A stretch of 64,000 bases of DNA from Pedosphaera sp. (GTDB taxonomy: Bacteria > Verrucomicrobiota > Verrucomicrobiia > Limisphaerales > AAA164-E04). How positions within the stretch are numbered: position 1 is the first letter of the stretch; every line of letters begins with the position of its first letter. Below, piece after piece: positions 32 through 55,344 of this stretch. The notes below the pieces were generated by a model, which saw only the letters and a list, made by a program, of their open reading frames with translations, was not told the DNA's origin and made no database searches. The translations under genes were made by a program, and so were the position numbers. The stretch covers positions 1 to 64,000 of the forward strand of contig NZFL01000003.1 of assembly GCA_002690655.1 (NCBI GenBank), given 5' to 3'.

Positions 32-1966
32 TTACTTAAGTCGAACAATGCGATAGATGCTTAAATCTGTGTTGTTCTGAATTTGAACGGCATCATGTGA
101 ATCAGCACCAAACCTTGGAGCTCCAATGTTCTGCCATTCATTCAGACTACTTGTTTGCTGTAACTGGTAAATACCACCCTCAATTGTTGTCCATGATAGC
201 CAACTCTGGTTATTTACTTCATACATAGCTATTGTTAAAGAGTCCGCTGGGTTGCTTGGATCTGTGCCGGCAAGCAACTCTTCAAGGTTTGTAGCACCAT
301 CCCCATCGGAATCGCCGTCTGCACCTTTCCATGCTGAGGTCCCTATTCCAAAATGAGATGATTGCCAGGAATCTGGAAGACCATCTTCATTTGCATCGAT
401 CCCCCAGGTTTGAGTGGAGGCGCTGACAGAATCGGCGGATACCGTTCCATCTGCATATATATTGGATAATGAAATGTTGTAGACTTGCCCAGGCTTGAGG
501 TCAGAAATGGTCAAACTTGTCGCCTCAGTATCAATGAATGAGTTACCTGCTCCGTAAGTAATACGATATCCAGAAACACTTTCATCGTGTGCATCTGGCC
601 AAACAACGTTGACCGAATCAAAACCAGCTCCGAATCCATACACGTGACTGGGGATGGCCCTTCCAGCTAATGGTTTGAATCTCTGACCAAACACTTCCAA
701 TGATTTCGAGGTTGAGGAAAACCCACTCCATGTCACTACAAGATTTTCATCATCGACACTGGCAACGTTACCAAGAAATTGGCGACCGGATGTCGTCGTA
801 TTGATCAAGACATCCTTGCTCACGGGGACTCCGTCTCTGACGCTCTTACCGTAGATGCCAGATGAATCTCCATCGTGACCTAGACTTGTCCATGTGACAA
901 AAAAGCCTCCATCAGTGGCACATGCCCTGGGCGCAAATTGATCACCGTAGGCGATACTGTTGACAAGTATTGGCTTGGCTTCGGGTGAACCTGATCCTGC
1001 ATCAATCGATTGATAATAAATATCCCAATTGTTATCTGTTATTTTACCTTTGGGTTTTGATGAATAGAATAAACCCAACGATCCGTCCTCGGAATTGATT
1101 ACATGAGGATTGCTTGAAATCGAATCGGTCGAGGATAGAACTGATTCATCGGATGTCGCATTGCCAGCAGTGTCGAAATGACGGCCTTTGAGAACAACAT
1201 CAAATTGACGTCCCCCGCTGAAGAAATCGATCCGTCCGTTCCTCCTTACACTGTCGGATATTCCGGCCAGTTGTTCAGAGACCCAGACTGCATAAAAACC
1301 ACCATTTTCGGAGGGTGAAATGGACAGCGATTTCTGGTTGTAATCGGTTTCCTGCGACAAACCAAACTCAGCTGTTTGTGGATTCCCATTTGCAGAGAAG
1401 ACTCTGCCAAATACACCATAATGGCTACCGTCCTGATCCAGACTGGACCAGGCGAAAACAACATTACCATTGTCCAGTGATGCTAAAACGGGACGGTTTT
1501 GTGTGTTGTCAGTTGTCTCATTCACTAATAGTTCACCGGTGGCAAAAACCCCTTCAGATGAAATAAATCTGGCATAAATGTCGCCTTTGCTTTCCCAAAC
1601 AACGACTGCGGACAAGTCCACATCGGAAAGGAGCACGATCTGTGCATCAAGCTGATCTCCGGTGGTGGTTTCATTCACTGTGATGGGCTCGAAAACGCTG
1701 GAAGCGTTTTCGTCAAGCCGCAGCAAACTGATGCCTAAGCCGTCATTGTCAGCATGATGATCATTCCATGTGATGTAACCACCAAGCTTGTTCATTGCCA
1801 GATTTTGATTGGATTGATCCCCGGGGATGTTTCCACCGATCAGAAATTCATCTCCGTTTCGAGCCAAATCCGAGGCACAAATGTTTGTGGAATCGATACA
1901 TTGGCAAATCGAAATGATGGTTAAAATGATGATATTTCTTTTCATATGCTGCATGAAACAAATCAT
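32..1966 (-). CDS. Secreted protein with FN3 domain and Ca-binding-type repeat
   Basis: Product of 644 residues, function unknown. The N-terminus has a basic start and a hydrophobic stretch that reads as a signal peptide. ATG codons at 1966, 1954 and 1945 are all possible; the one at 1945 (MKRNIII) gives the most normal signal peptide, and none has a clear ribosome binding site. The first two thirds hold repeated WxS and TxxxDxF-like blocks that suggest a beta-propeller or beta-sandwich exported protein. A fibronectin type III-like domain follows at about residues 440-520. Next comes an Asp-rich DANEDGLPDSW...DSDGDGATNLEE segment of the thrombospondin type 3/dockerin-like calcium-binding kind. 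The C-terminal domain is about 60 residues. It lies 87 bp downstream of the secretin gene on the same strand, so co-transcription is possible. No PEP-CTERM-type sorting tail is visible. Confidence 0.75.
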   Translation of the reverse strand: MICFMQHMKRNIIILTIISICQCIDSTNICASDLARNGDEFLIGGNIPGDQSNQNLAMNKLGGYITWNDHHADNDGLGISLLRLDENASSVFEPITVNETTTGDQLDAQIVLLSDVDLSAVVVWESKGDIYARFISSEGVFATGELLVNETTDNTQNRPVLASLDNGNVVFAWSSLDQDGSHYGVFGRVFSANGNPQTAEFGLSQETDYNQKSLSISPSENGGFYAVWVSEQLAGISDSVRRNGRIDFFSGGRQFDVVLKGRHFDTAGNATSDESVLSSTDSISSNPHVINSEDGSLGLFYSSKPKGKITDNNWDIYYQSIDAGSGSPEAKPILVNSIAYGDQFAPRACATDGGFFVTWTSLGHDGDSSGIYGKSVRDGVPVSKDVLINTTTSGRQFLGNVASVDDENLVVTWSGFSSTSKSLEVFGQRFKPLAGRAIPSHVYGFGAGFDSVNVVWPDAHDESVSGYRITYGAGNSFIDTEATSLTISDLKPGQVYNISLSNIYADGTVSADSVSASTQTWGIDANEDGLPDSWQSSHFGIGTSAWKGADGDSDGDGATNLEELLAGTDPSNPADSLTIAMYEVNNQSWLSWTTIEGGIYQLQQTSSLNEWQNIGAPRFGADSHDAVQIQNNTDLSIYRIVRLK

Positions 1967-2053: not shown

Positions 2054-5050
2054 TTATTCGGTATCACTAACCCTGTCCGAGAAACTCAGCGGGTCATACG
2101 GCAGATTGTTTTCGTCATGAACACGGTTGCCAGCAGGATCAACGATCGTCGGCGTCACGAAAATAGCCAAATTCTTTTTCTCGGTGAAGTTGGATTCGCT
2201 TCGGAAAAATCTTCCAAGGAAAGGAATATCGCCTAGAACTGGCACCTTGTCTTTGTGTTTAGCTACGTCTTCTGAAATCAGTCCACCTAGAACAACTGTT
2301 TGGCCATCCCATACGACAACACTGGTCAAAACTTGACGTGTTCGCAATCGAGGTAGAGGTAATTGAGCCACCAATGGATTCGCCACCGTGCTACCAGCAC
2401 CACCTTGTGCAATAACTGCGAACGGGCCTGGATCGTCATATCCTACAAATTGAATCAAAGTAGGCAAAATGGTTAATTTGATTGTATATCCGTCTGATGA
2501 AACATAGGGAACAATATCTAACATGGGACCTTCAGGAATAACTGTGGTTTGAGGTGTGATGGTCGTTCCGAGAGGCGTGTTTCCGCCACCGCCAACGTTC
2601 ACACCACCGCCACCGCCACCACCGCCAACACCACCGCCGCCGCCTTGTTGGTTGGCACCTGTTCCGGTAACAATGGTTCGCATGTCAACAGCGCGAATAC
2701 TGGCCTGGCGGCCACTCACTGTTGTAATGCTGGGAGATGCAAGAACATCAACACCATCGCGTTGATCTAAAGCACGTAAGACTACTCGGAACTGTGGGTC
2801 CGTCAGGATACCCGTAAAAGTGGCCATGGCTGGAATGGGTGTTCCATCCGGCCCATCTGTCCTGACACCGTTGGTAAGACGTTGATCAGACCCGTCCGTT
2901 GGCTGTGCAGTGGGAATACCACCACTGGCAGGAAAAATACCAAGACTGTTGGCTGCGGAAGGCTGCCCATTCATCGAAGGTGCAGTGCCACCGCTGAAGA
3001 CACCCTTGTCTCCGAACGCAAGCACATTGCCGAGGAACCAGTCAAAACCAAGTGCTCTGCTGTCGTTTTGTGTAAATTCAGCGAATTTTGCTTCTATGGT
3101 CAGTTGTGGAGGCATCTCATTGAGGGTTTGAATTGCCTGCTCAATAATATCCAGGTCAGTCATGGTTGCTCGGACATACAAAGAGCCATTACGATCATTG
3201 AAAAAGACAGCTTTTCCATCGCTTTGTTGGCCACCAAGACCACCCATGCCGCCGCCCATGCCGCCGCCCATGCCCATGCCGCCACCCATGCCGCCACCCA
3301 TGCCGCCACCCATGCCGCCACCCATGCCGCCCATCATCTGGCCCATAGTGAAATTAACACCAGCCGCAGCAAAAAAGTTACGCACAAGTACTTGGACATC
3401 CGCCATCATACGCACAGATGAAACACCACCCGAGGCTCCCATGCCCATGCCGCCGCCCATGCCGCCGCCCATGCCGCCACCCATGCCGCCACCCATGCCG
3501 CCGCCGCCGCCCATGCCGCCGCCACCCATGCCGCCGCCCATGCCGCCACCCATGCCGCCGCCCATGCCGCCGCCGCCCATCATACTCATACCAGTTGGAT
3601 CAGCAAATAAGATGGGCATGCTTGTGCCGCCCATGCCGCCGCCGCCACCGCCCATGCCGCCGCCGCCCATGCCGCCGCCGCCGCCGCCCATGCCGCCGCC
3701 GCCACCGCCACCGCCACCGGTATTGATTGCCTGATCAAGTGAAATTCCTGTGACTCCTTCCATACCTTGAATGAATACATCCGGATCCACCTTGTAAGTT
3801 CTCGTGAACAATGGCTCGGTGTCTTCGACTTTTTTGGTGAAGATGACAGCATAATCCAAAACACTGAATTTGATCGGTGTCTCAGCAACGTTTGTTACCA
3901 ATTCAACGACCTGAGATAATTTAATATTTCGTAATGGTGGAGTGATCGTAATTCCAACACTGTAGAGATCGATGGGTTCAGTAGGTAATGGTGCAACGGA
4001 TGGCAACCCCGTCAATGGGTCTACACCGCCGGCGAATGGAGATGCCTGAACCCCCGTGTCCATGTGGTTACTGATGACAAAGTTGATACCCTCCTCCTCA
4101 GCATCACGTTCCCTGGCTTCGTCATATAAAAATTGTACTACCTCACTTAATGGCAGACCGTCAAAAACGACTTCATCAAGAATGATACGGTCCATTTTGG
4201 ATATGATTTTTTGGCGACCTAATCCTGTGTGGACTAGGTTCGTGCTCGCATAACTGTTGGATACGGGGAGTTCGTTTTTGTTTAAGCCCGGGTCCCAGTA
4301 ATTGGCAACCTCAATCATTTTTTCCTGTGAGGTGATCTCGCGCTTGCGTGTTTCTCTTTGGAATTTCTTCTGATTGAGAAGTGAAAGGTAATACCAGACG
4401 GCATTACTTTCAGGATCCAATTTTTTGGCTTCATTGAGTTTAGCTTCAGCCTCCTCCAATTTGTTCAGCTCAAGAAACAGTCGTGCATCTTGAATCATCG
4501 TCGAAGCTTGTATCTGCTGTTCGCGCACCGCTGGTATTTTGGTGATAGCATCACGGCTTGGCTGCCTTCCAGTGTACCGCAGTATGAGTTTGTCATTTGC
4601 AGCTTTGAATTGCAGGGCGCCTTCATTATTGGGGTCCAGCTTCAAGATACGCACAGCTTCCTGATCCGCTTCATAAAACTTTTGCGCCTTCTGAAATTTA
4701 TCGGCAAGTTTGAGGCGAATCTCAGCCATACCTTCAACGGTGCGCTGTCGTTCGGCCTCAACAGCAGCAATTGGCCCCACCTTGTTCAGGTGGTTGACTG
4801 CTTCCTCATAAAGCAGCGCAGTTTTCAAAAGTTCGTCACGTGCTTTAGCTTCATTGCGAGAAGACTCTGCTTGTTCAAGCTTGATCCTCAACGCTATGAC
4901 CGCTTCTTCACGTATAGCTTTTTCTCTGTTGGATAGTTGGTCAACAGATTGAGCAGTCACGCTACAGACTGCGCTTACTGCTATGACCAGACATAGAATG
5001 GTTGTCGCTGCTTTGCTCATGGGTTTGCTACTCATCAAACTAAAAGTCAT
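2054..5050 (-). CDS. Secretin, Amuc_1098-like, with Gly/Met-rich inserts
   Basis: Product of 998 residues, an outer-membrane secretin of the type II/III secretion and type IV pilus superfamily. An N-terminal signal peptide ends near AQS; internal ATGs at residues 6 and 11 could be the true start. Residues about 35-250 are helical and TPR-like. STN/N-domain-like sequence follows (for example DEVVFDGLPLSEVV). The C-terminal secretin domain shows VLASPSITTVSGRQA, VVWDGQTVVLGGLISE and VPVLGDIPFLGRFF, the usual closing signature. Two blocks of GGM/GGG repeats lie at about residues 443-537 and 572-603, and a shorter Gly tract lies near residue 810. Such low complexity is unusual for the family. It is last in a four-gene series with PilM-like and Amuc_1100-like proteins, 15 bp after the preceding gene. 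In Akkermansia the equivalent set is Amuc_1098-1101. A pilus or envelope-complex role is inferred. Confidence 0.88.
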   Translation of the reverse strand: MTFSLMSSKPMSKAATTILCLVIAVSAVCSVTAQSVDQLSNREKAIREEAVIALRIKLEQAESSRNEAKARDELLKTALLYEEAVNHLNKVGPIAAVEAERQRTVEGMAEIRLKLADKFQKAQKFYEADQEAVRILKLDPNNEGALQFKAANDKLILRYTGRQPSRDAITKIPAVREQQIQASTMIQDARLFLELNKLEEAEAKLNEAKKLDPESNAVWYYLSLLNQKKFQRETRKREITSQEKMIEVANYWDPGLNKNELPVSNSYASTNLVHTGLGRQKIISKMDRIILDEVVFDGLPLSEVVQFLYDEARERDAEEEGINFVISNHMDTGVQASPFAGGVDPLTGLPSVAPLPTEPIDLYSVGITITPPLRNIKLSQVVELVTNVAETPIKFSVLDYAVIFTKKVEDTEPLFTRTYKVDPDVFIQGMEGVTGISLDQAINTGGGGGGGGGMGGGGGGMGGGGMGGGGGGMGGTSMPILFADPTGMSMMGGGGMGGGMGGGMGGGMGGGGMGGGGGMGGGMGGGMGGGMGGGMGMGASGGVSSVRMMADVQVLVRNFFAAAGVNFTMGQMMGGMGGGMGGGMGGGMGGGMGMGGGMGGGMGGLGGQQSDGKAVFFNDRNGSLYVRATMTDLDIIEQAIQTLNEMPPQLTIEAKFAEFTQNDSRALGFDWFLGNVLAFGDKGVFSGGTAPSMNGQPSAANSLGIFPASGGIPTAQPTDGSDQRLTNGVRTDGPDGTPIPAMATFTGILTDPQFRVVLRALDQRDGVDVLASPSITTVSGRQASIRAVDMRTIVTGTGANQQGGGGGVGGGGGGGGVNVGGGGNTPLGTTITPQTTVIPEGPMLDIVPYVSSDGYTIKLTILPTLIQFVGYDDPGPFAVIAQGGAGSTVANPLVAQLPLPRLRTRQVLTSVVVWDGQTVVLGGLISEDVAKHKDKVPVLGDIPFLGRFFRSESNFTEKKNLAIFVTPTIVDPAGNRVHDENNLPYDPLSFSDRVSDTE
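3240..3335 (-). repeat. GGM-coding tandem repeat, block 2 of secretin
   Basis: The plus strand reads as reiterated ccgccgcccatg / ccgccacccatg units. On the coding strand this encodes Gly-Gly-Met-Gly repeats at about residues 572-603 of the secretin. The short, near-identical 12-15 bp units make the tract prone to slippage. Confidence 0.9.
3440..3720 (-). repeat. GGM/GGG-coding tandem repeat, block 1 of secretin
   Basis: A long tract of short units (ccgccgcccatg and variants) is interrupted at about 3580-3630 by a unique stretch encoding roughly 17 residues. It codes for Gly/Met-rich low-complexity sequence at about residues 443-537 of the secretin. The reading frame is kept throughout, which argues for selection on the protein. 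Confidence 0.9.
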
Positions 5051-5065
5051 TTTAATAACGGAATG

Positions 5066-5863
5066 TTAATTACTTATCAATCCCGAGGTTATCGTCGTGT
5101 GCTTGGATGTTTTTTCGTCGGACAAAACTACTTCAGTTTCGGAAACGAATACAACCTTGTAGTTGCGTTTTTCAATGGAAATTTTATCACCTTTGCGCTG
5201 AGAAGTGAATTTGCGGGGTTTTGCTGCCGGATATTCCAGATCGGCCTTGTAACCAGTCACCTCAGTGAAAGGCTGGAGGGCTTCTACGGTGATCGCCTGA
5301 TTGGAATCCAGAAGCTCCAGAACAAAAGCGTCAGGTTTCAGTGGGTTCCCCTTAACCTCTTTCAAAATGAAAATGTCATTCTTATCACGAAGTCGAGCAA
5401 ATCGTGTGACTTTGCGACGCTCACTCTTTTTCTCGGCTGCCTCGCGAGTGACGGCGAAACTATAACGAGGATTTTCTTCTTTGATCTCCTTATCTGCATT
5501 GAATGAAATACGAAGATAAAGGGGATTGGTTTCAATAATTTTAAGCGCGTTCGGCCCCTTGCGTCCGTAGAAACGGTCCTTGACCAAAGTACCGTTGTTG
5601 TCAAGCCAACCAACGGGGTTGAACGTGTTATGATCAGGACCTGCAACGATGGCAGACTTAGGCTTTTTGGCTCGGTTCAACAAAGCAATCTTGTCACTCA
5701 AATCCTTAGGCTGAAATTCTTTGGGTTTTGTCGGACGAATACTTTCCTCCAACTCCACTCGGATAGAGGAAACAAGGAATGGCAGAGAAGCCGCAGCCCC
5801 AGCCAAACCCAACAAGACCACTGCTAAAATGATCTTTTCGTAATGTTTCTTTATAAAATCCAT
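5066..5863 (-). CDS. Membrane-anchored protein, Amuc_1099-like
   Basis: Product of 265 residues. A short cytoplasmic start (MDFIKKHYEK) precedes one transmembrane helix at about residues 11-33; the rest is probably periplasmic, charged and beta-rich. I recognise no catalytic motif. Its place between the Amuc_1100-like gene (21 bp upstream) and the secretin gene (15 bp downstream) matches Amuc_1099 of Akkermansia. By position it could play a PilP/GspC-like role linking the inner-membrane complex to the secretin. That role is inferred from context, not from a motif. Confidence 0.7.
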   Translation of the reverse strand: MDFIKKHYEKIILAVVLLGLAGAAASLPFLVSSIRVELEESIRPTKPKEFQPKDLSDKIALLNRAKKPKSAIVAGPDHNTFNPVGWLDNNGTLVKDRFYGRKGPNALKIIETNPLYLRISFNADKEIKEENPRYSFAVTREAAEKKSERRKVTRFARLRDKNDIFILKEVKGNPLKPDAFVLELLDSNQAITVEALQPFTEVTGYKADLEYPAAKPRKFTSQRKGDKISIEKRNYKVVFVSETEVVLSDEKTSKHTTITSGLISN

Positions 5864-5884
5864 TTTATTAAAAATCTACCCGAC

Positions 5885-7042
5885 TCATAAGCCGTAAGCC
5901 CCTGCGCCACCATCGCCCTCTTCTTCGTCAGATGGCAGAGGCATTAAAGAATCAAGCTCTTCTTCAGGAAAGACGGCAATTCCAACCAACATCATGTTGA
6001 CGGTCAAGGGTTTTTCGTCAAGATCTTCCAAAATGTTGATTTCAGGCCCAGCATTTTGGTTTTGACCCATTCCCCCGTAAGGAGAAGCGGCACCGTATCG
6101 ACCGCCGGCTCCACCTGCTCCGCCATACCTGCCTTGCATGCTCGCAGCGGGGGCGGTCGGTGCGAGTCCATACATTGCTTCCATTGAACCTTTCGCGCCA
6201 CGCATGGAACCAGCCATGGGTGACATGGAAGTAGATTCACCTTGCTCAACTGCCAGCCATTTTACTCTGAAAAAATGATTCGAATGATTAAATCCATCCA
6301 ACACCCGCCCCAGCTCAGAACTAAAGCACTGAAAGCTAATCTGATAAGGCATCATGATGGCATTGATGTTGGGATCCTGCGTCGCAACATCTTCTATGTA
6401 GTTTTCAGCAGAAGTGGAAGACGAAGTGGTCGAAGCGGTGCCTGAAAGGCCCATGGAGCTAGTACCGGCACTTGCCGCATCATTATCACTAACAGGAAGA
6501 CGCTTGATGGTATTGATTCCGTGAATTTTAGCTTCAAAAAGAACCTCGCACAATTCCCTGACCTGATAAAGCTGGAATGTCAAAGGACGCAAGGCGTCTA
6601 CTTCTAGATCGATCCGAGGTCGAATGTCATCAAAGGAAAACCCATAATTACCCTGATCCGAAGAAGGAAGCTTGATACCCGTGTATTTGGCATCTCTTTG
6701 CAATTCATAAACCGTATTTTCCAGAATTTCCTTGAACCCGGAAATGGATATGTCTGCCGGTATCTCAAAACCAGGGAAATAGGATCCCATAGGCCCCAAC
6801 ACCATCTCCTTGACCCTTTCCTGTTCCTTTTTGACCGCACTGATATTGTCCACCTTGTCGGTTCCGGGGTGAGGGTCACGGGTATAAAGGCTCTTTACGA
6901 GCTGGCGCTGAGAATCAAGCTCAGCCGTTATACCTTTGTCCTTGTCGATTTGCGCCATCATGTACCAGCCCGCAACACACATCAGGACGAGGGCAATCAC
7001 ACACCCTACCACCAAGCCTACGTTTTGTTTGATCCAGTTCAT
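5885..7042 (-). CDS. Amuc_1100-like PilO-type membrane protein
   Basis: Product of 385 residues: a short N-terminus, one transmembrane helix at about residues 9-30 and then a coiled-coil-prone segment (DKDKGITAELDSQRQLVKSL), the PilO/GspM-like plan. The periplasmic part has a Ser/Thr/Ala linker at about residues 195-215. A Gly/Ala/Tyr-rich low-complexity insert lies at about residues 297-327, and the tail is acidic (DEEEGDGG). The start codon overlaps the stop of the PilM gene in a TAATG arrangement, implying translational coupling. Gene order and architecture match Amuc_1100 of Akkermansia, the protein studied as a TLR2 ligand; this version is longer because of the inserts. No host-related function can be read from the sequence. 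Confidence 0.75.
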   Translation of the reverse strand: MNWIKQNVGLVVGCVIALVLMCVAGWYMMAQIDKDKGITAELDSQRQLVKSLYTRDPHPGTDKVDNISAVKKEQERVKEMVLGPMGSYFPGFEIPADISISGFKEILENTVYELQRDAKYTGIKLPSSDQGNYGFSFDDIRPRIDLEVDALRPLTFQLYQVRELCEVLFEAKIHGINTIKRLPVSDNDAASAGTSSMGLSGTASTTSSSTSAENYIEDVATQDPNINAIMMPYQISFQCFSSELGRVLDGFNHSNHFFRVKWLAVEQGESTSMSPMAGSMRGAKGSMEAMYGLAPTAPAASMQGRYGGAGGAGGRYGAASPYGGMGQNQNAGPEINILEDLDEKPLTVNMMLVGIAVFPEEELDSLMPLPSDEEEGDGGAGAYGL

Positions 7043-8925
7043 TAGTCAACAAGAGAAATGGGTTCTTTTAGTTTCAAGGAAATCTCAAACTTGAAAGTTC
7101 CTTCTTCAGCATTCACCTGGGCCAATTCACCAATCAATTTAGTATCATCCGCATTGAAATAATTGGTCTGTGTTTGTAGTTTTTGAAGCAGGGTAAATGC
7201 CAAACTGTTATTTGCATTAGGATTTATTGCCCTTCGGTTAACCCCCCGACAACTCAAAGTGAGTTTGGTAATCAGGTCCTCGTTATCCTCATCAGAAGTC
7301 GCACCGTCCTCATCATCATCCCAATCATCGTCACCTCCTGAGTCCCCCATGGGCAACAGCCCGTATCGCTTCATCATCTCAATATCCATCATGGGGCTGG
7401 CCTCATCCTCATCGTCATCCCAATCATCGAATGTCTGAGCACCAGTAAGATCTATGCCTGGACTATCAGGTTTCAAAGCTTCAAGCCATAGACCAGCATC
7501 AAGAGAAAAGCGTTTTTGTGCTTCCGATTCCGCCTCGAGGAGTGAACCTCTAATCACCTGCAGAAGGTCTGTCCAGTAGAACCGTTGTTGAACAAGACCC
7601 TCAAACGCTTCAACTTTGCTTAATTGAGTAGCCAGAGTTGATTCCTCGGGCTTCAATTGACCTTCCAGATTCTGAAGCGGAGCGGCAATGGTTTGGAGCC
7701 TGTTCATCACCTTCTGTTTTTCACCGAATACTTGAGAATAAAACAACCCAATGGCAGCAACCACAAGCACGAGACCAAAAACAGAGGATATCAGATAAGG
7801 CTTCTTTCGATTGAACTCCTGACGCTGCAAGGAAGACTTGGGCATCAGATTCAGTTCAACAGGACACTGAACCACATTCCTCAAGCCGAGACCTACGACC
7901 TCGCCAAACGAGTGTGCAACCCGAGCCAAGTCCTCCAGATTGAGGGAGGGATCGATTTCAACAGCACGAAAAGGGTTGAAATACTCAACTTCGACATTGA
8001 GCTTTTCTGCAAAAAATTGTGCTGTGTAAGGCATGATGGAAGCCCCTCCCGCAAGGAACAAACGGTCTGGTGCGGACCCACCCTGCTGAGTACGATAGAA
8101 CTGCATTGTCTGGTTGACCTGTATGTGCAAACGAGTCATGACCTGACGGGCGATCTTCGAAATTTGGGCTTGTTGAGGGTTGTCGGGATCCTCATAGGCA
8201 CCCCCCAAACTGACAAATCCCTGTTCGATTTTGAATTTTTCAGCATCAGGGAAGCGCATCTTGGCTTCTGTAGAAAATTCCTGTGTAATCGAATTTGCAC
8301 CAACATTAATGCTGCGAGCGAACATCTTACCTTTTTCGAAGAAGAGCAAGTTACTCGATTTGGCACCAATATCCAGCAACATGGTACAACCTTCCAGATC
8401 CCCGTAATTATAGCGAAAAGCGTTACATATGGCAGCCTGCGATACGTCGACCAGATTTAAGACCATGCCGTGTGACTCGGCAGCTTTGAACACTTTATCA
8501 ACCAAGTCGGTTTTGATTGCGACAAGCAGAACCTCCAACTCGCCACTTGGAGATGTTCCCATGATTTGGTAATCCCATACAACTTCCTCAAGAGGAAAAG
8601 GAACATTCTGTTGTGCCTCGTATTGGATGATCTGAGTGACTTTGGATGAATCAACCGGAGGCAATTTTACAAATTTTGAGAACACCTGATAACCAGGAGC
8701 ACAGGCATTGATGTTCTTGGCATTGAATCCCTGATCAGTGATGAGAGACTGAAGCGCCTTCTTGACGACACCTTCGCGGACAGCATCCTGCGCCCCGGGC
8801 AGTCCGAGAGGATGCTGGCCGAATTTCTTCAGCACCAGACTTCCTGAGTCAGTCTGATCGAACTCAGCGACTTTGACGCATCCGGCGCCTAGATCGATGC
8901 TTAAAAACGATTTCGATTTTAACAT
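7042..8925 (-). CDS. PilM/PilN-like fusion protein (Amuc_1101-like)
   Basis: Product of 627 residues. The N-terminal 350 residues are a PilM/FtsA-type actin-fold ATPase: SIDLGAGCVKVAEFD phosphate-1 loop, LLDIGAKSSNLLFFE phosphate-2 loop and LFLAGGASIMPYTA adenosine motif. A transmembrane helix follows at about residues 377-397 and then a PilN-like coiled coil, so the cytoplasmic and bitopic subunits appear fused in one chain. An Asp/Glu-rich insert at about residues 497-552 (two DDWDDDED blocks) is unusual. It is first gene of the pilus-like operon; a candidate promoter lies 90-115 bp upstream. It would organise the inner-membrane platform on the cytoplasmic side. Confidence 0.87.
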   Translation of the reverse strand: MLKSKSFLSIDLGAGCVKVAEFDQTDSGSLVLKKFGQHPLGLPGAQDAVREGVVKKALQSLITDQGFNAKNINACAPGYQVFSKFVKLPPVDSSKVTQIIQYEAQQNVPFPLEEVVWDYQIMGTSPSGELEVLLVAIKTDLVDKVFKAAESHGMVLNLVDVSQAAICNAFRYNYGDLEGCTMLLDIGAKSSNLLFFEKGKMFARSINVGANSITQEFSTEAKMRFPDAEKFKIEQGFVSLGGAYEDPDNPQQAQISKIARQVMTRLHIQVNQTMQFYRTQQGGSAPDRLFLAGGASIMPYTAQFFAEKLNVEVEYFNPFRAVEIDPSLNLEDLARVAHSFGEVVGLGLRNVVQCPVELNLMPKSSLQRQEFNRKKPYLISSVFGLVLVVAAIGLFYSQVFGEKQKVMNRLQTIAAPLQNLEGQLKPEESTLATQLSKVEAFEGLVQQRFYWTDLLQVIRGSLLEAESEAQKRFSLDAGLWLEALKPDSPGIDLTGAQTFDDWDDDEDEASPMMDIEMMKRYGLLPMGDSGGDDDWDDDEDGATSDEDNEDLITKLTLSCRGVNRRAINPNANNSLAFTLLQKLQTQTNYFNADDTKLIGELAQVNAEEGTFKFEISLKLKEPISLVD

Positions 8926-9196: not shown

Positions 9197-10624
9197 TCAA
9201 CGAGCTCCGTCCCCACCGATGACAACCGGTATTGTGCGGAGCAGGATCTTGATATCTAGCCACAGAGACCAGTTGTCAATATATTCAAGGTCCAGTCTGA
9301 CCCATTCTTTGAAATCGGTCACTTCATTTCTGCCGCTGATTTGCCAGAGGCAAGTGAGTCCTGGTTTGACACTCAATCGGCGGCGATGAGCCAATTCATC
9401 GAATTGCATGGTCTCATCCACCGGCAAAGGACGCGGGCCTACCAGGCTCATTTCCCCACGCAACACGTTAAACAACTGCGGCAATTCATCAAAACTTCTA
9501 TTCCTGAGGAACTGACCTATCGGCGTAATACGTGGGTCATTGGTGACTTTAAATACCGGCCCAGCCATTTCATTGTAGGCAAGGAGCTCATCCTTGCGCT
9601 GTTCGGCATCTGTCACCATGGTCCTGAATTTAAACATCGTGAAAGGCCGCCCATTCAGCCCGCTGCGCTGTTGTTTAAAAAAAACGGGTCCCTTGGAAGT
9701 AAGCCTGATGGCTAAAGTGCAAAACATTAGAATCGGACTGAAAAGCAATATGGCGAACAAAGCTCCCACAAAATCGATGGATTGTTTCCCTACTGCCTGC
9801 CATGAGAAATCGGGGGTCGATCGAAACACAACAACAGGCCGTCCATATAGCTCATCGAGGGTCGTTCGAGAAATTTGTGTATTGAAAAAATTGGCTAACA
9901 TCCAAACTTCGACGCCTTCCAACTCGCAGGCCTGAATAACTTTTTCAATCCGGCCGAAATAGGTGTGTTTGGTAGCCAGTAAGACTCCATTAGCGGAGTA
10001 TTTGTGCAAGGCATCCAGAAAAGCACTTGCGTTTGAATCGTTGACATCCACCTCAGCCACAATTTCAATATCACTGGCATTTTCAAGGTGAAAATCCTTT
10101 CTGACCTGCTCCACATCCTTGGGGGTCCCAACAACAATGATGCGGCGCCTCAAGCGAGCTTGCCCTAGGGCATGAATCAAATACCGCTGGAGGATCTCTT
10201 CTTTTATGAAGACCAGCATAAAACTGAAGGCACCAAAGAGAATAAATACCGCGCGAGCGAGTTGTGCCTTGGCAAAAAAGACGATTATGATAAGCGAAAC
10301 AGTGATCAGGACACACACTTTAAACAACTGCCAAGCAGTGAGTCGGCGGGACGCTAAAAGAGGGCGCCTGTAAAACCCTTGTGCCTGAAGGAGAACCAAT
10401 GACAGAGGAACGGTCAGGAACAGGAAAGGCATAAATTCACTGAAGGGCTCAATTTCACTGATATCCTTGGCGCCTCCGAACATCCCCAGTATGTTCAGGC
10501 CAAGCTCTCCCAGCAAGGTTTCATTAGTCCTGAGCCAGTACGCTAACCAGAAGCCTACTGCAAATAGGCCGGCATCAAGCAATCTCTGAATATGATTGCG
10601 TATCTGCTGCTGTCTTCTCAGCAT
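9197..10624 (-). CDS. Polyprenyl glycosylphosphotransferase (WbaP/EpsE-like)
   Basis: Product of 475 residues that starts exopolysaccharide repeat-unit assembly by moving a sugar phosphate from a UDP-sugar to undecaprenyl phosphate in the inner membrane. The N-terminus carries several membrane helices (about residues 10-130). A Rossmann-like soluble domain follows at about 150-265 (IIVVGTPKDVEQV), then another helix at about 285-305. The bacterial sugar transferase domain fills the C-terminus: FFKQQRSGLNGRPF, MFKFRTM, NRSFDELPQLFNVL, GEMSLVGPRPLP and KPGLTCLWQISGR. The length fits the five-helix WbaP class. It is the last gene of the EPS/exosortase locus, 90 bp after the EpsI-like gene. Sugar specificity cannot be read. 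Confidence 0.93.
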   Translation of the reverse strand: MLRRQQQIRNHIQRLLDAGLFAVGFWLAYWLRTNETLLGELGLNILGMFGGAKDISEIEPFSEFMPFLFLTVPLSLVLLQAQGFYRRPLLASRRLTAWQLFKVCVLITVSLIIIVFFAKAQLARAVFILFGAFSFMLVFIKEEILQRYLIHALGQARLRRRIIVVGTPKDVEQVRKDFHLENASDIEIVAEVDVNDSNASAFLDALHKYSANGVLLATKHTYFGRIEKVIQACELEGVEVWMLANFFNTQISRTTLDELYGRPVVVFRSTPDFSWQAVGKQSIDFVGALFAILLFSPILMFCTLAIRLTSKGPVFFKQQRSGLNGRPFTMFKFRTMVTDAEQRKDELLAYNEMAGPVFKVTNDPRITPIGQFLRNRSFDELPQLFNVLRGEMSLVGPRPLPVDETMQFDELAHRRRLSVKPGLTCLWQISGRNEVTDFKEWVRLDLEYIDNWSLWLDIKILLRTIPVVIGGDGAR

Positions 10625-10714: not shown

Positions 10715-11425
10715 TCATTCATTTTTAGAATCATCCTTTTGAGGGATGGTCATTTGAAATTCAGGTATGGCTGCTTTGATGAATTCACGCATTTTCTTGT
10801 ATGTAGGTTCCTCGTTACCTGGCACAGAATATGAGGAAACGGTAACGTAAGCCCAACGCTGCATCTGACCTTTGGTAAATAAATCTTTAGCCATAAGCCA
10901 CATCCTTTGATAGTGCTCCTCGGTCACATGATGTTCATCAACAAACCAGTAATAAAGTAAGCCACTGTATTCGACGCCTTTGAACAGTTTGGACGACTTC
11001 AATCTCATGGCAGGAAGCTCGTATTCCTCCGGGTGAGCGATTGGAATAGTTACGGGTTCAGTTTCTTTTATCTGAAAACCAGCCCCGGTCAAACAATACT
11101 GGGGTTTGTGGATGCTGGTGCGGTCCAGCCCCATCAACACCACCATGATATCGATATAAAATCCATCAGCGTTTTTATATCGACGTTTCGTAATCGTCGT
11201 ATCTGGAGGAAGAGCTTCTTTTTCAACCACAGTTACTTCCAGATCTTCGCCAACCAAATCCAGCACCCAGTCGGGGAGTTTGACCGGAGGAAGTTTCTCC
11301 GGGGATTCCTTTACTAATTGCACCCCCGGTTTGCCCATTTGCTGGTGAGATTTCCAATAGCTCAGAAATCCCCCAACACCACCGACCAATCCGCTCACTA
11401 ATATGAGCATAAGCAAGTTCTTCAT
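10715..11425 (-). CDS. EpsI/exosortase-associated protein (DUF3485-like)
   Basis: Product of 236 residues with an N-terminal membrane anchor (LLMLILVSGLVGGVGGFL). The soluble part carries GLDRTSIHKPQYCLTGAGF, resembling the conserved centre of the EpsI family (exosortase C-terminal or partner domain). Its start overlaps the exosortase stop by 4 bp (ATGA), so the two are translationally coupled. In many bacteria EpsI is fused to or encoded beside the exosortase and acts in EPS export and protein sorting, with its biochemical role still unclear. Family assignment is good from motif plus neighbour. Confidence 0.85.
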   Translation of the reverse strand: MKNLLMLILVSGLVGGVGGFLSYWKSHQQMGKPGVQLVKESPEKLPPVKLPDWVLDLVGEDLEVTVVEKEALPPDTTITKRRYKNADGFYIDIMVVLMGLDRTSIHKPQYCLTGAGFQIKETEPVTIPIAHPEEYELPAMRLKSSKLFKGVEYSGLLYYWFVDEHHVTEEHYQRMWLMAKDLFTKGQMQRWAYVTVSSYSVPGNEEPTYKKMREFIKAAIPEFQMTIPQKDDSKNE

Positions 11426-12390
11426 TGTGGGTCTCCTTTGATTTCTGCTGAGGTTTCAGGCTCTTTGAACCAGTAATCCAGTGCAAATATGCCGAATATG
11501 GCGACCAGAAAAGTCACGAAACCGAGTTTCTGCTCCCAATAGGCACCGGCATCCTGCCCGAATTCATCCCCAATAATGATCACAAGGACGATCCTGAGAG
11601 TATTTCCGGCCACGGCCAGAGGCACAGAAAGCAAGATCAATAGAATCCGCTTCCACCAGGCCTGGTAGGCGATGAAACCAAACGCAAGCGTCAGGGGAAC
11701 TAAAGTCATCAAACTACGAATACCACTGCAGGCTGCAGCAACGTCATAGGTGAATTTTTCGTTCACATCCATAATCAGTGTCCCCTGCCTGACAACATCA
11801 ATCTGAAGGATAGTATCGCTAAATCCGGCCGCCAAAGTAGAGACCAATACGCGCAAGGGGAAGGTGATAGGCTGAGCCAAAGAGCCAATGGGCACGCAAA
11901 ACAAGAAAAGTATGTAGGGAAAAAACGTGGCCCTTAGCCACGCCAGCCCCCAACAAAAACCCATCAGGCCATAAAAACCAAAAAACATTCCTAAAAGTGA
12001 AATACGCGTTTGCTGAGCGATGTATCCCACTATATGCAATACCAGCCCAAGCGCTAATAATGAAAGCCCGGGCCACCATGCCTTGAACTCGAGACTTGCC
12101 AACTCCTTGCGTTTCCATATCAGAAGAATCACGACAGCGAAAGGGATCAGGTTTCCATGACCGTCTTCTGAATATTTGGCGTTATAGGCGTTGTAGGCCC
12201 ATTCAAAAGCCGAAGAGGTATCCACATACCCAAATGTCGCATTACCAAATAAATGAAAGAGGAAAGCCATGGCAATCGCTCCCACCAAAAACACACTTTT
12301 GTGGGGTAGCCTTTTCAATAAAACGGATATTTCTTTGAATATATCCGCTGCTGAGCTTTCCTCAGGCTCTCTTTTTTCCACATTTTCCAT
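11422..12390 (-). CDS. Exosortase (EpsH/Xrt family), catalytic His not found
   Basis: Product of 322 residues with about eight membrane helices. Exosortases are integral-membrane cysteine transpeptidases that cut and anchor PEP-CTERM-type proteins. The catalytic Cys is seen in AAACSGIRSLMTLVPL and the Arg in GNTLRIVLVI. The third conserved residue, normally a His about 25-30 residues after the Arg, is not seen; the matching stretch reads GAYWEQKLGFVTF. Start is ATG at 12390. It lies 82 bp after the WecG-like gene and overlaps epsI by ATGA, so it belongs to the polysaccharide operon. I cannot assign an Xrt subtype, and no obvious sorted substrate is encoded in this window. Confidence 0.88.
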   Translation of the reverse strand: MENVEKREPEESSAADIFKEISVLLKRLPHKSVFLVGAIAMAFLFHLFGNATFGYVDTSSAFEWAYNAYNAKYSEDGHGNLIPFAVVILLIWKRKELASLEFKAWWPGLSLLALGLVLHIVGYIAQQTRISLLGMFFGFYGLMGFCWGLAWLRATFFPYILFLFCVPIGSLAQPITFPLRVLVSTLAAGFSDTILQIDVVRQGTLIMDVNEKFTYDVAAACSGIRSLMTLVPLTLAFGFIAYQAWWKRILLILLSVPLAVAGNTLRIVLVIIIGDEFGQDAGAYWEQKLGFVTFLVAIFGIFALDYWFKEPETSAEIKGDPQ

Positions 12391-12472: not shown

Positions 12473-13246
12473 TCACGGGGCAAATCCCCTTTTCCATGCA
12501 TTGCCTTTAAGCAAACCACGGACAAGGAGGAATAGGAACATCGTGTTGTAATAGAGGTATCTGCCGAATAGCCGCCTAGGCTCACTCAGCAATCGGAACA
12601 ACCAGCCTAAGCCCATGTTCTGCATCCACATGGGAGCGTCAGGTTTGGTTCCCGCATTCACATCAAACGCAAAACCAACCGCCAGCAAAAGCCCGCGCTT
12701 TATCTCATCTTTATGCTGATGAATCCATGCTTGCTGCTTGGGTGTCCCTAAACCAACCCAGATAAAATCAGGCCCAAGACGATTGATCTCTTGAACGATT
12801 TCCGCTGATGATTCTTCCTTGAAATAGCCATTCTGCATTCCCACAACCTGAACTTCAGGCTGCCATTTCTCAAAAGCTTGCTTCAGTTGCTCCAAACAAG
12901 CATCCGAACCCCCAAGAAAAAAATGTGTGAATGGTTTGGGCGAGTGATTGACACAATGTTTCATGAACGCAGGACCGTAAACCCTGTCTTTCAAGTTCGC
13001 CTGCTGATTGTTCAGGCACCAGATAAGGGGCATGCCGTCGGGAATGAAGTAATCCACATTGGAGGTCTGTTCCCTAAAAGCGGCATCCAGGCATCGCATG
13101 GTAATGATCTGGGTGTTTGAAAAATCCAATGAAATTACCCTGTCTTTTTTGGATTCTTGCTGACAAAAAAAGGTCAGGTCCGCATAGGAAGTCGCCCTGA
13201 CAGGCGTCCCCAGTATATGATGACAAGGCAGATCGTTCACCTTCAT
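12473..13246 (-). CDS. WecG/TagA/CpsF family glycosyltransferase
   Basis: Product of 257 residues, glycosyltransferase family GT26. These enzymes add a sugar (often N-acetylmannosamine or its uronic acid) from a UDP-sugar to a polyprenyl-linked acceptor at the cytoplasmic membrane face. Family signatures are DGMPLIWCLN, FFLGGSDACLEQL and FIWVGLGTPKQQAWI, with the acidic/basic YGPAFM region between them. The start overlaps the epimerase stop by 4 bp (ATGA). With the epimerase and the phosphotransferase it probably builds an exopolysaccharide or O-antigen-like repeat. The transferred sugar is unknown. Confidence 0.9.
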   Translation of the reverse strand: MKVNDLPCHHILGTPVRATSYADLTFFCQQESKKDRVISLDFSNTQIITMRCLDAAFREQTSNVDYFIPDGMPLIWCLNNQQANLKDRVYGPAFMKHCVNHSPKPFTHFFLGGSDACLEQLKQAFEKWQPEVQVVGMQNGYFKEESSAEIVQEINRLGPDFIWVGLGTPKQQAWIHQHKDEIKRGLLLAVGFAFDVNAGTKPDAPMWMQNMGLGWLFRLLSEPRRLFGRYLYYNTMFLFLLVRGLLKGNAWKRGFAP

Positions 13247-52200: not shown

Positions 52201-53940
52201 TTAACCCATCTCACCTTGAATGCGCCAAGTTACTCTTTTGAGCTCATCTAAGCCAATAACACCATCTTGAATCTTTTGAAAGGCACTTTCCCTCAATGAA
52301 CGCCAACCAAATCGGCGGGCTTTTTCTTTCAATTGAGTTAGGGACATTCCCATGGCTATGGACTCGGCCAATTCATCGTTCATCAGGAAGAATTCGTAAA
52401 TGGCAATACGGCCTCGGTATCCATGGCCACTGCATCTCTCGCAACCTTCTCCTTTCCAAGCCTTGATTTCGCGGACCGGCAAGGAAAGCGCTTGAGCCAT
52501 TTCTTGCCGCAGATCTGCATCCAATATTTCATTCTCGGACCGGCAATGCTCGCAAATCCGCCGCGCTAGACGTTGGGCCACGGAGGCCGCAAGGGATGAA
52601 CCGATCAAATGCGAGTCCATCCCCATCCCCAGCAGACGGGTAACAGCACCAACGCTATCGTTCGTATGGAGTGTAGACAAAACCAGATGCCCTGTTTGAG
52701 CGGCTCTCACCGCGATCTCCGCCGTAGTGTGATCGCGAATCTCACCGACAAGAACGACATCCGGATCATGGCGAAGGATCGAACGAAGACCGCTGGCAAA
52801 AGTAAGCCCAATCGGTTCTCGAGTCTGTATTTGTGATACACCTTCTATTTGATATTCGACGGGGTCTTCTATGGTAATGATTTTTCGACCATCTTCATTG
52901 GCGCGTGAAAGTGCGGCATAGAGACTCGTTGTTTTGCCGCTCCCGGTTGGCCCGGTGACCAAAACCAGCCCCTGAGGCAGGTTGACCATTTCAGAAAAAA
53001 GCTTTTCCTGTTCATCACTCATGCCCAGCTCGGTTAAATCCAAAAACAGACTCTCCCTCCCCAAAATCCTCAAACATATGGTTTCACCATGTTTGGTGGG
53101 AATCACGGAGACTCGAAGATCAAACTGTTCCCCATTGGTCTGCATTGTGATGCGGCCGTCATGAGGCAACCGCTTTTCGGAAATATTCAAGTCGGCCATA
53201 ATTTTCAGCCTTGAAACGATAGCACCATAAAGCCGCCTCAACTGCTCAGGAACGGGCACTCTCTTCAGAACCCCGTCAATTCGATATCTCAGTCGAATTG
53301 AATCATGATAAGGTTCGATGTGAACATCCGTAGCTCGCAGTTTCAATGCTTCAGCCAAAATCTGATCTACTAAACGCGAAATGGTTCCATCTTTGAGCTG
53401 CGCATCGGGAGCCCGCCCGACATCATAAACAATCTCCTGCCCATCATCAGGTAATTGGCTTTGAGATTTCAATTGCTCAACGGTATCGGCCCCAATACCG
53501 AAACTGCGCTTGATGACGGATTGTATGCGACTTGGGGCAGCCAATGCCACTTGGATGCGTTTTCCTAGAATTAACCGAAGATTTCCCAACTCAATGGGCG
53601 AAGGCACTTCAGCAAAGGCCAAGGTCAAACAATCATCTTCGACCTTGATGGGAAGTATTTGGTAGTGAAAAACCAGTTTGACCGGCAGGGTGTGAAGTAA
53701 TTCAGAGGTAGGCTCGTAATGCTCCAGGTCGAGGAATTCAAGGTGTTCCGATTCAGCAAGGGCCTTGAGCGTTTCTTCTTCCGAAGCAAGCCTCAGATCG
53801 AGAATCGCTTTAGCACAGCTTACCCTCAAACGTTTTTGACGCTGTTTAACCTGTTCAAGCGAGGACTCGGTCAAGATGCCCTTGGCCAGCAATAAATCTG
53901 CGACATCACCGTGTCGGTTTTGAGTGGTTGCATTGTCCAT
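52201..53940 (-). CDS. Type II secretion/type IV pilus ATPase GspE/PilB
   Basis: Product of 579 residues, the cytoplasmic hexameric motor. The N-terminal MshEN-like domain spans about residues 10-150. The ATPase core holds GPTGSGKTTSLYAAL (Walker A), the Asp box TIEDPVEYQIEG, DPDVVLVGEIRDHTTAEIA (Walker B) and the His box TGHLVLSTLHTN. The tetracysteine zinc motif (CEHCRSE then GCERCSGHG) is intact. Its ATG abuts the PilP/GspC-like stop (53940), so it belongs to the second secretin operon. Whether it powers secretion or pilus extension is not decided by sequence. Confidence 0.95.
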   Translation of the reverse strand: MDNATTQNRHGDVADLLLAKGILTESSLEQVKQRQKRLRVSCAKAILDLRLASEEETLKALAESEHLEFLDLEHYEPTSELLHTLPVKLVFHYQILPIKVEDDCLTLAFAEVPSPIELGNLRLILGKRIQVALAAPSRIQSVIKRSFGIGADTVEQLKSQSQLPDDGQEIVYDVGRAPDAQLKDGTISRLVDQILAEALKLRATDVHIEPYHDSIRLRYRIDGVLKRVPVPEQLRRLYGAIVSRLKIMADLNISEKRLPHDGRITMQTNGEQFDLRVSVIPTKHGETICLRILGRESLFLDLTELGMSDEQEKLFSEMVNLPQGLVLVTGPTGSGKTTSLYAALSRANEDGRKIITIEDPVEYQIEGVSQIQTREPIGLTFASGLRSILRHDPDVVLVGEIRDHTTAEIAVRAAQTGHLVLSTLHTNDSVGAVTRLLGMGMDSHLIGSSLAASVAQRLARRICEHCRSENEILDADLRQEMAQALSLPVREIKAWKGEGCERCSGHGYRGRIAIYEFFLMNDELAESIAMGMSLTQLKEKARRFGWRSLRESAFQKIQDGVIGLDELKRVTWRIQGEMG

Positions 53941-54503
53941 TACTGAATAGGTATTTCCAATGAGGTTAGCTTGTTGAACGGTATACGGTGCTCCTTATCA
54001 TCTTTACTTTTCAAGAGGATGAATTCTGAATTTATTTCAAGCAAAGTAAACTCGGGGCTTAAATCCCCGCTAATCCCTGCACTGAGTTTTTTATTATCAA
54101 TAGTCACGAACGCCTCCAGTTCCTTGCCTGAGCTTTCGAACCAGCCCTGATAGAGCAATTCCACTTGCTTCATGGTGGGCTTGGGCGGTGGCGCCGGTTT
54201 TGGAGCGGGCTTGAAAAAATCGGTAAAGAACGGGTTGGCTTCGTTTTTCATCGCAGGCCAGGCCTTTATCGGGGGAAGACCTGGTCGGTTCACCAAGGTT
54301 TGAAAGGGGTGTTTTGATACCACTTGGCTTGACGATCGTATTTGTGGTAAGTCAGGCAAATCACCCCCCAGACGCATCGCGGCCAGGAAAGTCATCAACA
54401 ACGTGACAATCATCACACCAACAGACACCCATTGATACATAGGCCAGAGTGTTGTTTGATTTACTGGTTTTTCATTCAATGCCTGATCTCTCCTTGATTT
54501 CAT
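53940..54503 (-). CDS. GspC/PilP-like bitopic protein
   Basis: Product of 187 residues from ATG 54503 (MKSRRDQALNEK); the longer frame lies in the upstream gene. One transmembrane helix at about residues 24-46, a Pro/Lys-rich linker (FFKPAPKPAPPPKPT) and a C-terminal beta domain (LLYQGWFESSGKELEAFVTI ... FILLKSKDDKEHRIPFNKLTSLEI) resembling the homology region of GspC or PilP, which connects inner-membrane parts to the secretin. Overlaps the preceding gene by 32 bp. Family is inferred from plan and position. Confidence 0.75.
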   Translation of the reverse strand: MKSRRDQALNEKPVNQTTLWPMYQWVSVGVMIVTLLMTFLAAMRLGGDLPDLPQIRSSSQVVSKHPFQTLVNRPGLPPIKAWPAMKNEANPFFTDFFKPAPKPAPPPKPTMKQVELLYQGWFESSGKELEAFVTIDNKKLSAGISGDLSPEFTLLEINSEFILLKSKDDKEHRIPFNKLTSLEIPIQ

Positions 54504-55344
54504 GGTAGGTAAACCCGTTGACAACAAGATCCAACACCACTTGATTAGCCGATCCTTTGGGAGTTTTTTTAAGAAGCAGCCGTTCGATGTACAAGGCCGG
54601 TTTTTCAGGATGCACCATAGGCAATTCCAAGCTTTCTGCTTCATCGCCTCGCAGCGGCAAGGCCGCCAAAAATTGTTGAGCCTCAGCCATGTCACATTGA
54701 ACGGACATGCTGAATCGCGAGCGATGCAAACGATGTCGTTTTGAAATTGAAGCATCTTCCGTCAACTGGGGCGGTAACGATTCAAATCGGAGAATGGAAT
54801 CAAGTTGGCATTCGATTGCCAATGAGAGGAGATAATTGGCAAAAGCAAGCCCAGCCCACAACAGACGCGGCTCCTCCACTGCAACATCATGCCGAGGCAA
54901 TCCTTTAAACACTTCATCTCCTACAGAAATTGTTTTTTCAGCAGCACTCTTCTTCAAAAAAACCTCAAGCGCCACCAAGGCGTTTTCATATTCAACCAGC
55001 TGAAAAGACTGTTCCATTTTAGCTTGAGTCTCTTCGGGCAGCAGCACTCGACTAATGAGATTTGCCTCAGCATCGGTGAAACTCGCAAAAGTGGATTCCA
55101 TCGAAGAGGTCAGCTCGTTCATCGCATGAATGTCCAAGGCACCTCCAAGCTTGTTCGTGTTGATAGAATCTCCAAGCCTAGTCCAAGAAAGCTGCAATGG
55201 CGTATTGAGTGCTTGAACTTTCTTGTCCAGCGGGATCAAAACCAAAAAATAAAAAAGGCATGTTCCCAGGGCCAACATGATCATGGATTTTGAATCTGCT
55301 GCCATTTTTTGGAAAAAAGAGATCATACTAAGGCCCTCACTCAT
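54472..55344 (-). CDS. PilO/GspM-like bitopic protein
   Basis: Product of 290 residues from ATG 55344, overlapping the previous stop by 8 bp; ATG 55326 has a better GAGG upstream and is an alternative. A transmembrane helix at about residues 23-42 (MIMLALGTCLFYFLVLIPLD) is followed by long helical segments and a C-terminal ferredoxin-like area (SMSVQCDMAEAQQFLAALPLRGDEAESLELP). This is the PilO/GspM plan. The long upstream open frame to 55590 lies inside the neighbouring gene. Sequence identity is low, so the family is called from architecture and operon place. Confidence 0.72.
   Translation of the reverse strand: MSEGLSMISFFQKMAADSKSMIMLALGTCLFYFLVLIPLDKKVQALNTPLQLSWTRLGDSINTNKLGGALDIHAMNELTSSMESTFASFTDAEANLISRVLLPEETQAKMEQSFQLVEYENALVALEVFLKKSAAEKTISVGDEVFKGLPRHDVAVEEPRLLWAGLAFANYLLSLAIECQLDSILRFESLPPQLTEDASISKRHRLHRSRFSMSVQCDMAEAQQFLAALPLRGDEAESLELPMVHPEKPALYIERLLLKKTPKGSANQVVLDLVVNGFTYHEIKERSGIE

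Follow-up and report, generated by a model that had tools for sequence, protein, structure and literature searches.

What role can be ascribed to the genes known from Akkermansia muciniphila as Amuc_1098 to Amuc_1101 when they are found in a bacterium of the Limisphaerales? The question is raised by four genes of the window, i.e., the 64,000-nucleotide stretch of a Pedosphaera sp. contig analyzed here. They are homologous to Amuc_1101, 1100, 1099, and 1098, are co-directional and, according to the list of open reading frames (ORFs), nearly abut one another between positions 2054 and 8925:

7042-8925, minus strand: Amuc_1101-type PilM, 627 aa (NCBIfam, Pfam, and PilM structures)
5885-7042, minus strand: Amuc_1100-type, predicted PilO-like protein, 385 aa (NCBIfam, AF2 model, and crystal structures)
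5066-5863, minus strand: Amuc_1099-type, likely PilP-like protein, 265 aa (hhalign, AF2 model, and PilP structures)
2054-5050, minus strand: Amuc_1098-type PilQ-like secretin, 998 aa (Pfam, NCBIfam, and PilQ/GspD structures)

The close relatives found for the window are environmental genomes, and we take the source group to be marine. The closest is the single cell SCGC AAA164-E04 (98% identical in protein; 94.6% identical in DNA, over 18.9 kb), which we presume to be linked to the polysaccharide-uptake cell sorting of Martinez-Garcia 2012. The SCGC series resembles the one described there, although the main text does not name AAA164-E04 (PMC3335022). The assembly is 87% complete, with a contamination estimate of 5.9% and strain-level duplicates: contigs C11 and C5 overlap C35 as slightly different copies, positions 1-3277 of C11 being 99.1% identical to the reversed start of the window. 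These copies are probably strain variants, which fits the contamination estimate.

Homology and Predicted Folds of the Four Proteins

The 627-aa protein matches the Amuc_1101 family of NCBIfam (483 bits, E 1.5e-144) as well as PilM (TIGR01175, 151.9 bits; PF11104, E 1.2e-36), and its sequence finds the PilM structures 3jc8_Ma of Myxococcus (E 2e-34), 2ych, and 5eou. Its C-terminus consists of a membrane helix and a periplasmic part, which we infer from the sequence to be a fused PilN-like tail. An NLMP motif stands ahead of the helix, at residues 359-362; the same pattern finds no match in the Akkermansia protein. At the other end of the set, the 998-aa protein is certainly a secretin (PF00263, E 2.5e-30), with a TPR-like N-terminal region and a long Gly/Met-rich linker. 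It matches PilQ and GspD structures, and the locus together with its membership in the Amuc_1098 family (322 bits, E 6e-96) identifies it as PilQ rather than GspD, the name PilQ having been given to Amuc_1098 in 2016 (PMC4960237). The Gly/Met-rich stretch, made of GGGM repeats, accounts for the long antisense ORFs in this gene, such as the one at 3162-3734 within 2054-5050.

The two central proteins are less readily recognized. A single-sequence search of solved structures with the 385-aa protein returned nothing relevant, the 265-aa protein has no direct match to an NCBIfam family, and the Amuc_1099 profile gave only chance matches to solved structures; structure prediction was therefore needed for both. 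At the sequence level, the 385-aa protein matches the Amuc_1100 family of NCBIfam (45.6 bits, E 6e-12), as do all 58 orthologs. Profiles built from 58 orthologs each were also compared, using hhalign, with profiles of entirely separate membership, made from Akkermansia and other families, and both proteins were found again, Amuc_1100 with a probability of 100 (E 1.3e-39) and Amuc_1099 with a probability of 99.6 (E 5.2e-24). The Akkermansia reference was validated against the deposited chains, its 1100 and 1102 matching Amuc_1100 and Amuc_1102 with E-values of 5.5e-177 and 4.4e-138. With NCBIfam matches for three of the proteins and profile-profile matches for 1100 and 1099, the suggestion that the four genes have the order and architecture of Amuc_1101-1098 is borne out. 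Since the scores remain under the equivalog cut-offs of NCBIfam (322 of 750 bits for Amuc_1098, 45.6 of 180 for Amuc_1100, and 483 of 650 for Amuc_1101), the proteins are homologs and not equivalogs.

The AF2 model of the 385-aa protein comprises an N-terminal membrane helix, a coiled coil, and a ferredoxin-like core with pLDDT values mostly of 85-96, while a Gly/Ala-rich insert (residues 272-340) is modeled with low confidence. It matches the crystal structures of Amuc_1100 (6lad, Z 17.7; 6kny, Z 16.8; 6laf, Z 16.6; Foldseek E 3e-8), as had been anticipated. Directly below them rank the PilO structures of Pseudomonas (2rjz, Z 9.1; 5uvr, Z 7.6), and then GspL and PulL-PulM. The protein is thus predicted to have the fold of Amuc_1100, and PilO is the next closest.

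For the 265-aa protein, the model (pLDDT 88) shows a membrane helix and two small beta domains. When compared with 982 chains by VIA-align, PilP took ranks 1, 2, and 4 (3jc8_Pa, Z 8.4; 2y4y, 7.9; 2y4x, 7.2), the best of these scores being borderline, i.e., close to the background of models without a clear match. With Foldseek, PilP was outside the top 50, and the best matches were weak KOW/tudor-like ones (E 0.03). The protein, an Amuc_1099 homolog by profile, is on the basis of this model likely to be PilP-like, the best solved structures being those of PilP at a borderline score. In the Limisphaerales, Amuc_1099 is about 75 residues shorter than in Akkermansia and has no TSP3 segment. Its counterparts in other families (L089-L102 and others; alignment A5) have a TSP3-like calcium-binding segment that separates the membrane helix from the PilP-like domain. 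A neighboring protein, p644, had entered the first Amuc_1099 model as the sole candidate in one truncated locus; it was rejected as an ortholog, the profile having drawn it in via its TSP3 repeat.

Gene Order and Inheritance Across the Verrucomicrobiota

Among Limisphaerales loci with enough sequence, the order 1101>1100>1099>1098 is found in 34/35 and 49/49 cases (two genome sets that partly overlap; this also applies to the paired counts below), and it recurs in 43/49 loci of other families. Gene order in relatives is thus not random, as had been proposed. The six remaining loci failed an automatic test and, in those inspected, the cause was divergence or antisense ORFs picked by the simple gene caller. 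Several families end the set with two tandem Amuc_1098-type secretin genes (L071, L074, L082, L094, L095, L097). In the sampled families outside the Limisphaerales, the usual arrangement is 1102-1101-1100-1099-1098.

Matches to the Amuc_1101 family occur in 371 of 387 genomes of the phylum, a count that includes generic PilM/FtsA relatives; with an Amuc_1101 match at E < 1e-30, 339 of the 387, counted by hand, bear the set. In the PilM tree, the Limisphaerales form a single clade with full support, which indicates vertical inheritance of the set. Four metagenome-assembled genomes titled Akkermansia muciniphila (L158, L178, L186, L224) carry the Limisphaerales-type set, with a PilM 51-57% identical to that of the window, and these titles are therefore probably wrong.

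This distribution bears on the possibility that the set is a host-signaling system whose homologs in free-living bacteria are incidental. Purified Amuc_1100 does act on TLR2 (PMC5332112), but the set is near-universal and vertically inherited in a largely environmental phylum, the close relatives of the window are environmental, and the parts are those of pilus assembly, so that hardly any credence can be given to this explanation. Nearly all Verrucomicrobiota appear to carry such a pilus anchor, mostly without an animal host, and the Limisphaerales make do with four of the usual five parts. The original prediction of a conserved envelope machine whose first role was not host signaling therefore agrees well with these data, even if it overlooked the absence of the fifth gene. 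The general point was also known already: a recent study, which found the MUL2 gene order conserved among Akkermansiaceae and Verrucomicrobiales of aquatic habitats, together with fucoidan uptake, argued for an ancestral glycan role (Wilkie et al., 2026; PMC13174399).

Loss of Amuc_1102 in the Limisphaerales

The fifth gene, Amuc_1102 (MUL2A), is absent from the Limisphaerales loci (0/35 and 0/56). Genome-wide, profile A6 detected it in 0/78 Limisphaerales genomes and in 28/60 controls. This profile misses divergent, Opitutales-like copies that do sit at the locus; a claim of absence based on A6 alone was therefore rejected and the search repeated with the broader profile A7, which found Amuc_1102 in 0/44 Limisphaerales genomes versus 20/26 others. 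As judged from these searches, the Limisphaerales have lost Amuc_1102. Without MUL2A upstream of Amuc_1101, the locus is, strictly speaking, no MUL2 locus, MUL2 having reportedly been defined by Davey in 2023. The Limisphaerales form thereby tells the core machine of MUL2 from a replaceable part. In the portion available, the survey of Wilkie et al. (2026; PMC13174399) reports on Verrucomicrobiales, Chthoniobacterales, and Methylacidiphilales and has nothing on the MUL2A-less form of the Limisphaerales; as far as our literature search reached, this loss and the fixed neighbors described below are undescribed.

Fixed and Frequent Neighbors of the Set

The set is flanked by the following genes:

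32-1966, minus strand: p644, secreted FN3 + TSP3 protein (Pfam fn3), linked to the set in the Limisphaerales only
9197-10624, minus strand: polyprenyl glycosylphosphotransferase, which primes exopolysaccharide synthesis and lies upstream of the set (EPS_sugtrans, 397.9 bits)
10715-11425, minus strand: EpsI-like exosortase-associated protein, DUF3485 (PF11984, E 4e-15)
11422-12390, minus strand: exosortase (PF09721, E 2e-44)
12473-13246, minus strand: WecG/TagA/CpsF glycosyltransferase, where the exopolysaccharide neighborhood begins (PF03808, E 3e-54)

Downstream, p644 and c496, two secreted proteins specific to the Limisphaerales, accompany the set in 47/47 Limisphaerales loci and in 0/28 elsewhere, and they are possibly surface partners of the pilus system. 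A zinc protease was considered for c496 and rejected, the HExxH motif being absent from its 31 members. The C-termini of p644, c949, and a 1227-aa subtilase have in common a module (Y..Q..L..W...FYR.V) some 60 residues long (positions 35-214 of the window; 7421-7615 and 11142-11327 of locus L084). Other large proteins encoded in the genome have weaker copies of this module, which is possibly a sorting domain.

Upstream, the sugar transferase is found in 20/35 and 36/56 Limisphaerales loci and in 1/43 elsewhere, EpsI in 16/35 and 32/56 (0/43 elsewhere), and the exosortase in 17/35 and 32/56 (0/43 elsewhere), the WecG/TagA/CpsF glycosyltransferase being linked only occasionally (3/35 and 8/56). 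The exopolysaccharide and exosortase neighbors that had been pointed out are thus real, but they are not peculiar to this genome, since they recur in about half of the Limisphaerales; they are a frequent upstream neighbor and not a core part of the set. One could imagine that the set serves as a gate for exopolysaccharide or for the exosortase-sorted proteins of these genes, given that the exosortase-EpsI-sugar transferase group lies upstream in 17/35 and 32/56 loci of the Limisphaerales and in 0/43 outside. This is nonetheless very unlikely: the linkage is missing in about half of the Limisphaerales and in the rest of the phylum sample, and with two PEP-CTERM matches in the genome itself, few substrates of the PF07589 type are known. 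It is conceivable, if rather unlikely, that the Limisphaerales as a whole swapped Amuc_1102 for p644 and c496, as a new pair of periplasmic or surface proteins, and tied the set to an exosortase/exopolysaccharide locus, making a different adhesive or uptake organelle on the same anchor.

Motors, Pilins, and Other Secretins

As stated in the original prediction, no pilin or ATPase gene adjoins the set. This says little, since the genome has a PilB-PilT-PilB-PilC cluster with several pilin-like genes on contig C30. The window itself has a separate secretin/ATPase cluster at 52201-59253. The two PilB-like ATPases of C30 score 617 and 608 bits, below the cut-off, and PilT 442 bits, above it; the PilC-like protein (444 aa) was recognized by eye only. 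No secretin or PilM was found in the examined stretch of C30, which stops at the contig end. Four distinct secretins are present in the genome, and an ATPase adjoins three of them (C19, C27, and C35 at 52-59 kb) but not the Amuc-type one, with which, by elimination, we infer that PilB, PilT, and PilC of C30 pair. The 52201-59253 cluster is T2SS/T4P-like and encodes a 701-aa secretin, a 579-aa PilB/GspE-like ATPase, and proteins of 604, 372, and 271 aa, of which the 604- and 271-aa ones match no Pfam family. Prepilin-type N-termini give 67 matches in the genome, mostly in scattered reading frames of 230-350 codons.

Across the phylum, PilT is found in 335/339 set-bearing genomes versus 38/48 without the set (Fisher p 2e-7, a value inflated because lineages share ancestry and are not independent); as the latter 38 show, PilT is not confined to set-bearing genomes. 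Family f8 has neither the set nor PilT, and f5 has no set and, except for one genome with a weak match, no PilT. The presence of motors elsewhere in the genome, together with PilT in 335/339 set-bearing genomes, makes the set independent of a host.

An alternative would be a motor-independent or T2SS-like channel that exports the Limisphaerales-specific p644, c949, and subtilase to the surface without a retractile pilus. The p644 and c496 genes are indeed fixed downstream of the set in all 47 Limisphaerales loci, the Amuc_1100-type fold also resembles parts of GspL and PulM, and the shared C-terminal module is strongest at this locus, where its scores are inflated because the model was built from these same three proteins. 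However, the sequence says PilM and not GspL, neither ATPase nor pseudopilin genes adjoin the set, and three other secretin systems with ATPases of their own are available for secretion, which makes such a channel unlikely.

Proposed Role of the Set

We consider it likely that the set is a type IV pilus alignment complex with its outer-membrane gate, served by motors and pilins encoded elsewhere. The folds, the PilM and secretin sequences, and the gene order together argue for a PilM(N)-PilO-PilP-PilQ complex in canonical order. The 627-aa protein would be the cytoplasmic PilM ring protein with its PilN-like tail, the 385-aa (PilO-like) and 265-aa (PilP-like) proteins would sit in the inner membrane and extend into the periplasm, and the 998-aa PilQ secretin would be the gate, the four assembling together. 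PilB, PilT, PilC, and pilins encoded at a distance would drive the Amuc-type secretin, and the pilus may capture particles or polysaccharide, by analogy with what is proposed for MUL2 of Akkermansiaceae. To our knowledge, no pilus has been seen in Limisphaerales.

Amuc_1100, studied as a probiotic signaling protein and said to sit on pili, thus looks PilO-like from the predicted fold of its homolog, its neighbors, and its presence across most of a largely free-living phylum. Such an anchor part would normally be periplasmic, yet Amuc_1100 has been located on the Akkermansia cell exterior (PMC5332112); the two are at odds, and the reported exposure is therefore a testable puzzle. Reviews that put Amuc_1100 on pili (PMC10688800) likewise fit a PilO-like identity poorly.

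Comparison With Known Systems

Type II secretion systems differ from the set in that GspE and pseudopilins are not in the same cluster here. With the type IVa PilMNOPQ systems of Pseudomonas, Myxococcus, and Thermus, the set shares the order M-(N)-O-P-Q, the PilM sequence, the predicted PilO-like fold and a likely PilP-like one, the secretin, and PilB, PilT, and PilC in the genome. It departs from them by a PilN-like part that appears fused to PilM, by 1100 and 1099 proteins that cannot be recognized as PilO and PilP by sequence, and by a membrane helix in the PilP-like protein instead of the lipoprotein signal of PilP. Closest is Amuc_1098-1102/MUL2 of Akkermansia muciniphila, in which 1101-1100-1099-1098 have the same order and strand, along with the Amuc_1100 fold and a PilQ-type secretin with N-terminal TPRs; in contrast, the Limisphaerales are without Amuc_1102 and the TSP3 segment of 1099 and have p644 and c496 as fixed neighbors, often with an exosortase/exopolysaccharide locus. 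The MUL2 loci that Wilkie et al. (2026; PMC13174399) describe from aquatic Akkermansiaceae and Verrucomicrobiales are environmental homologs of the same machine, for which that study proposes glycan capture.
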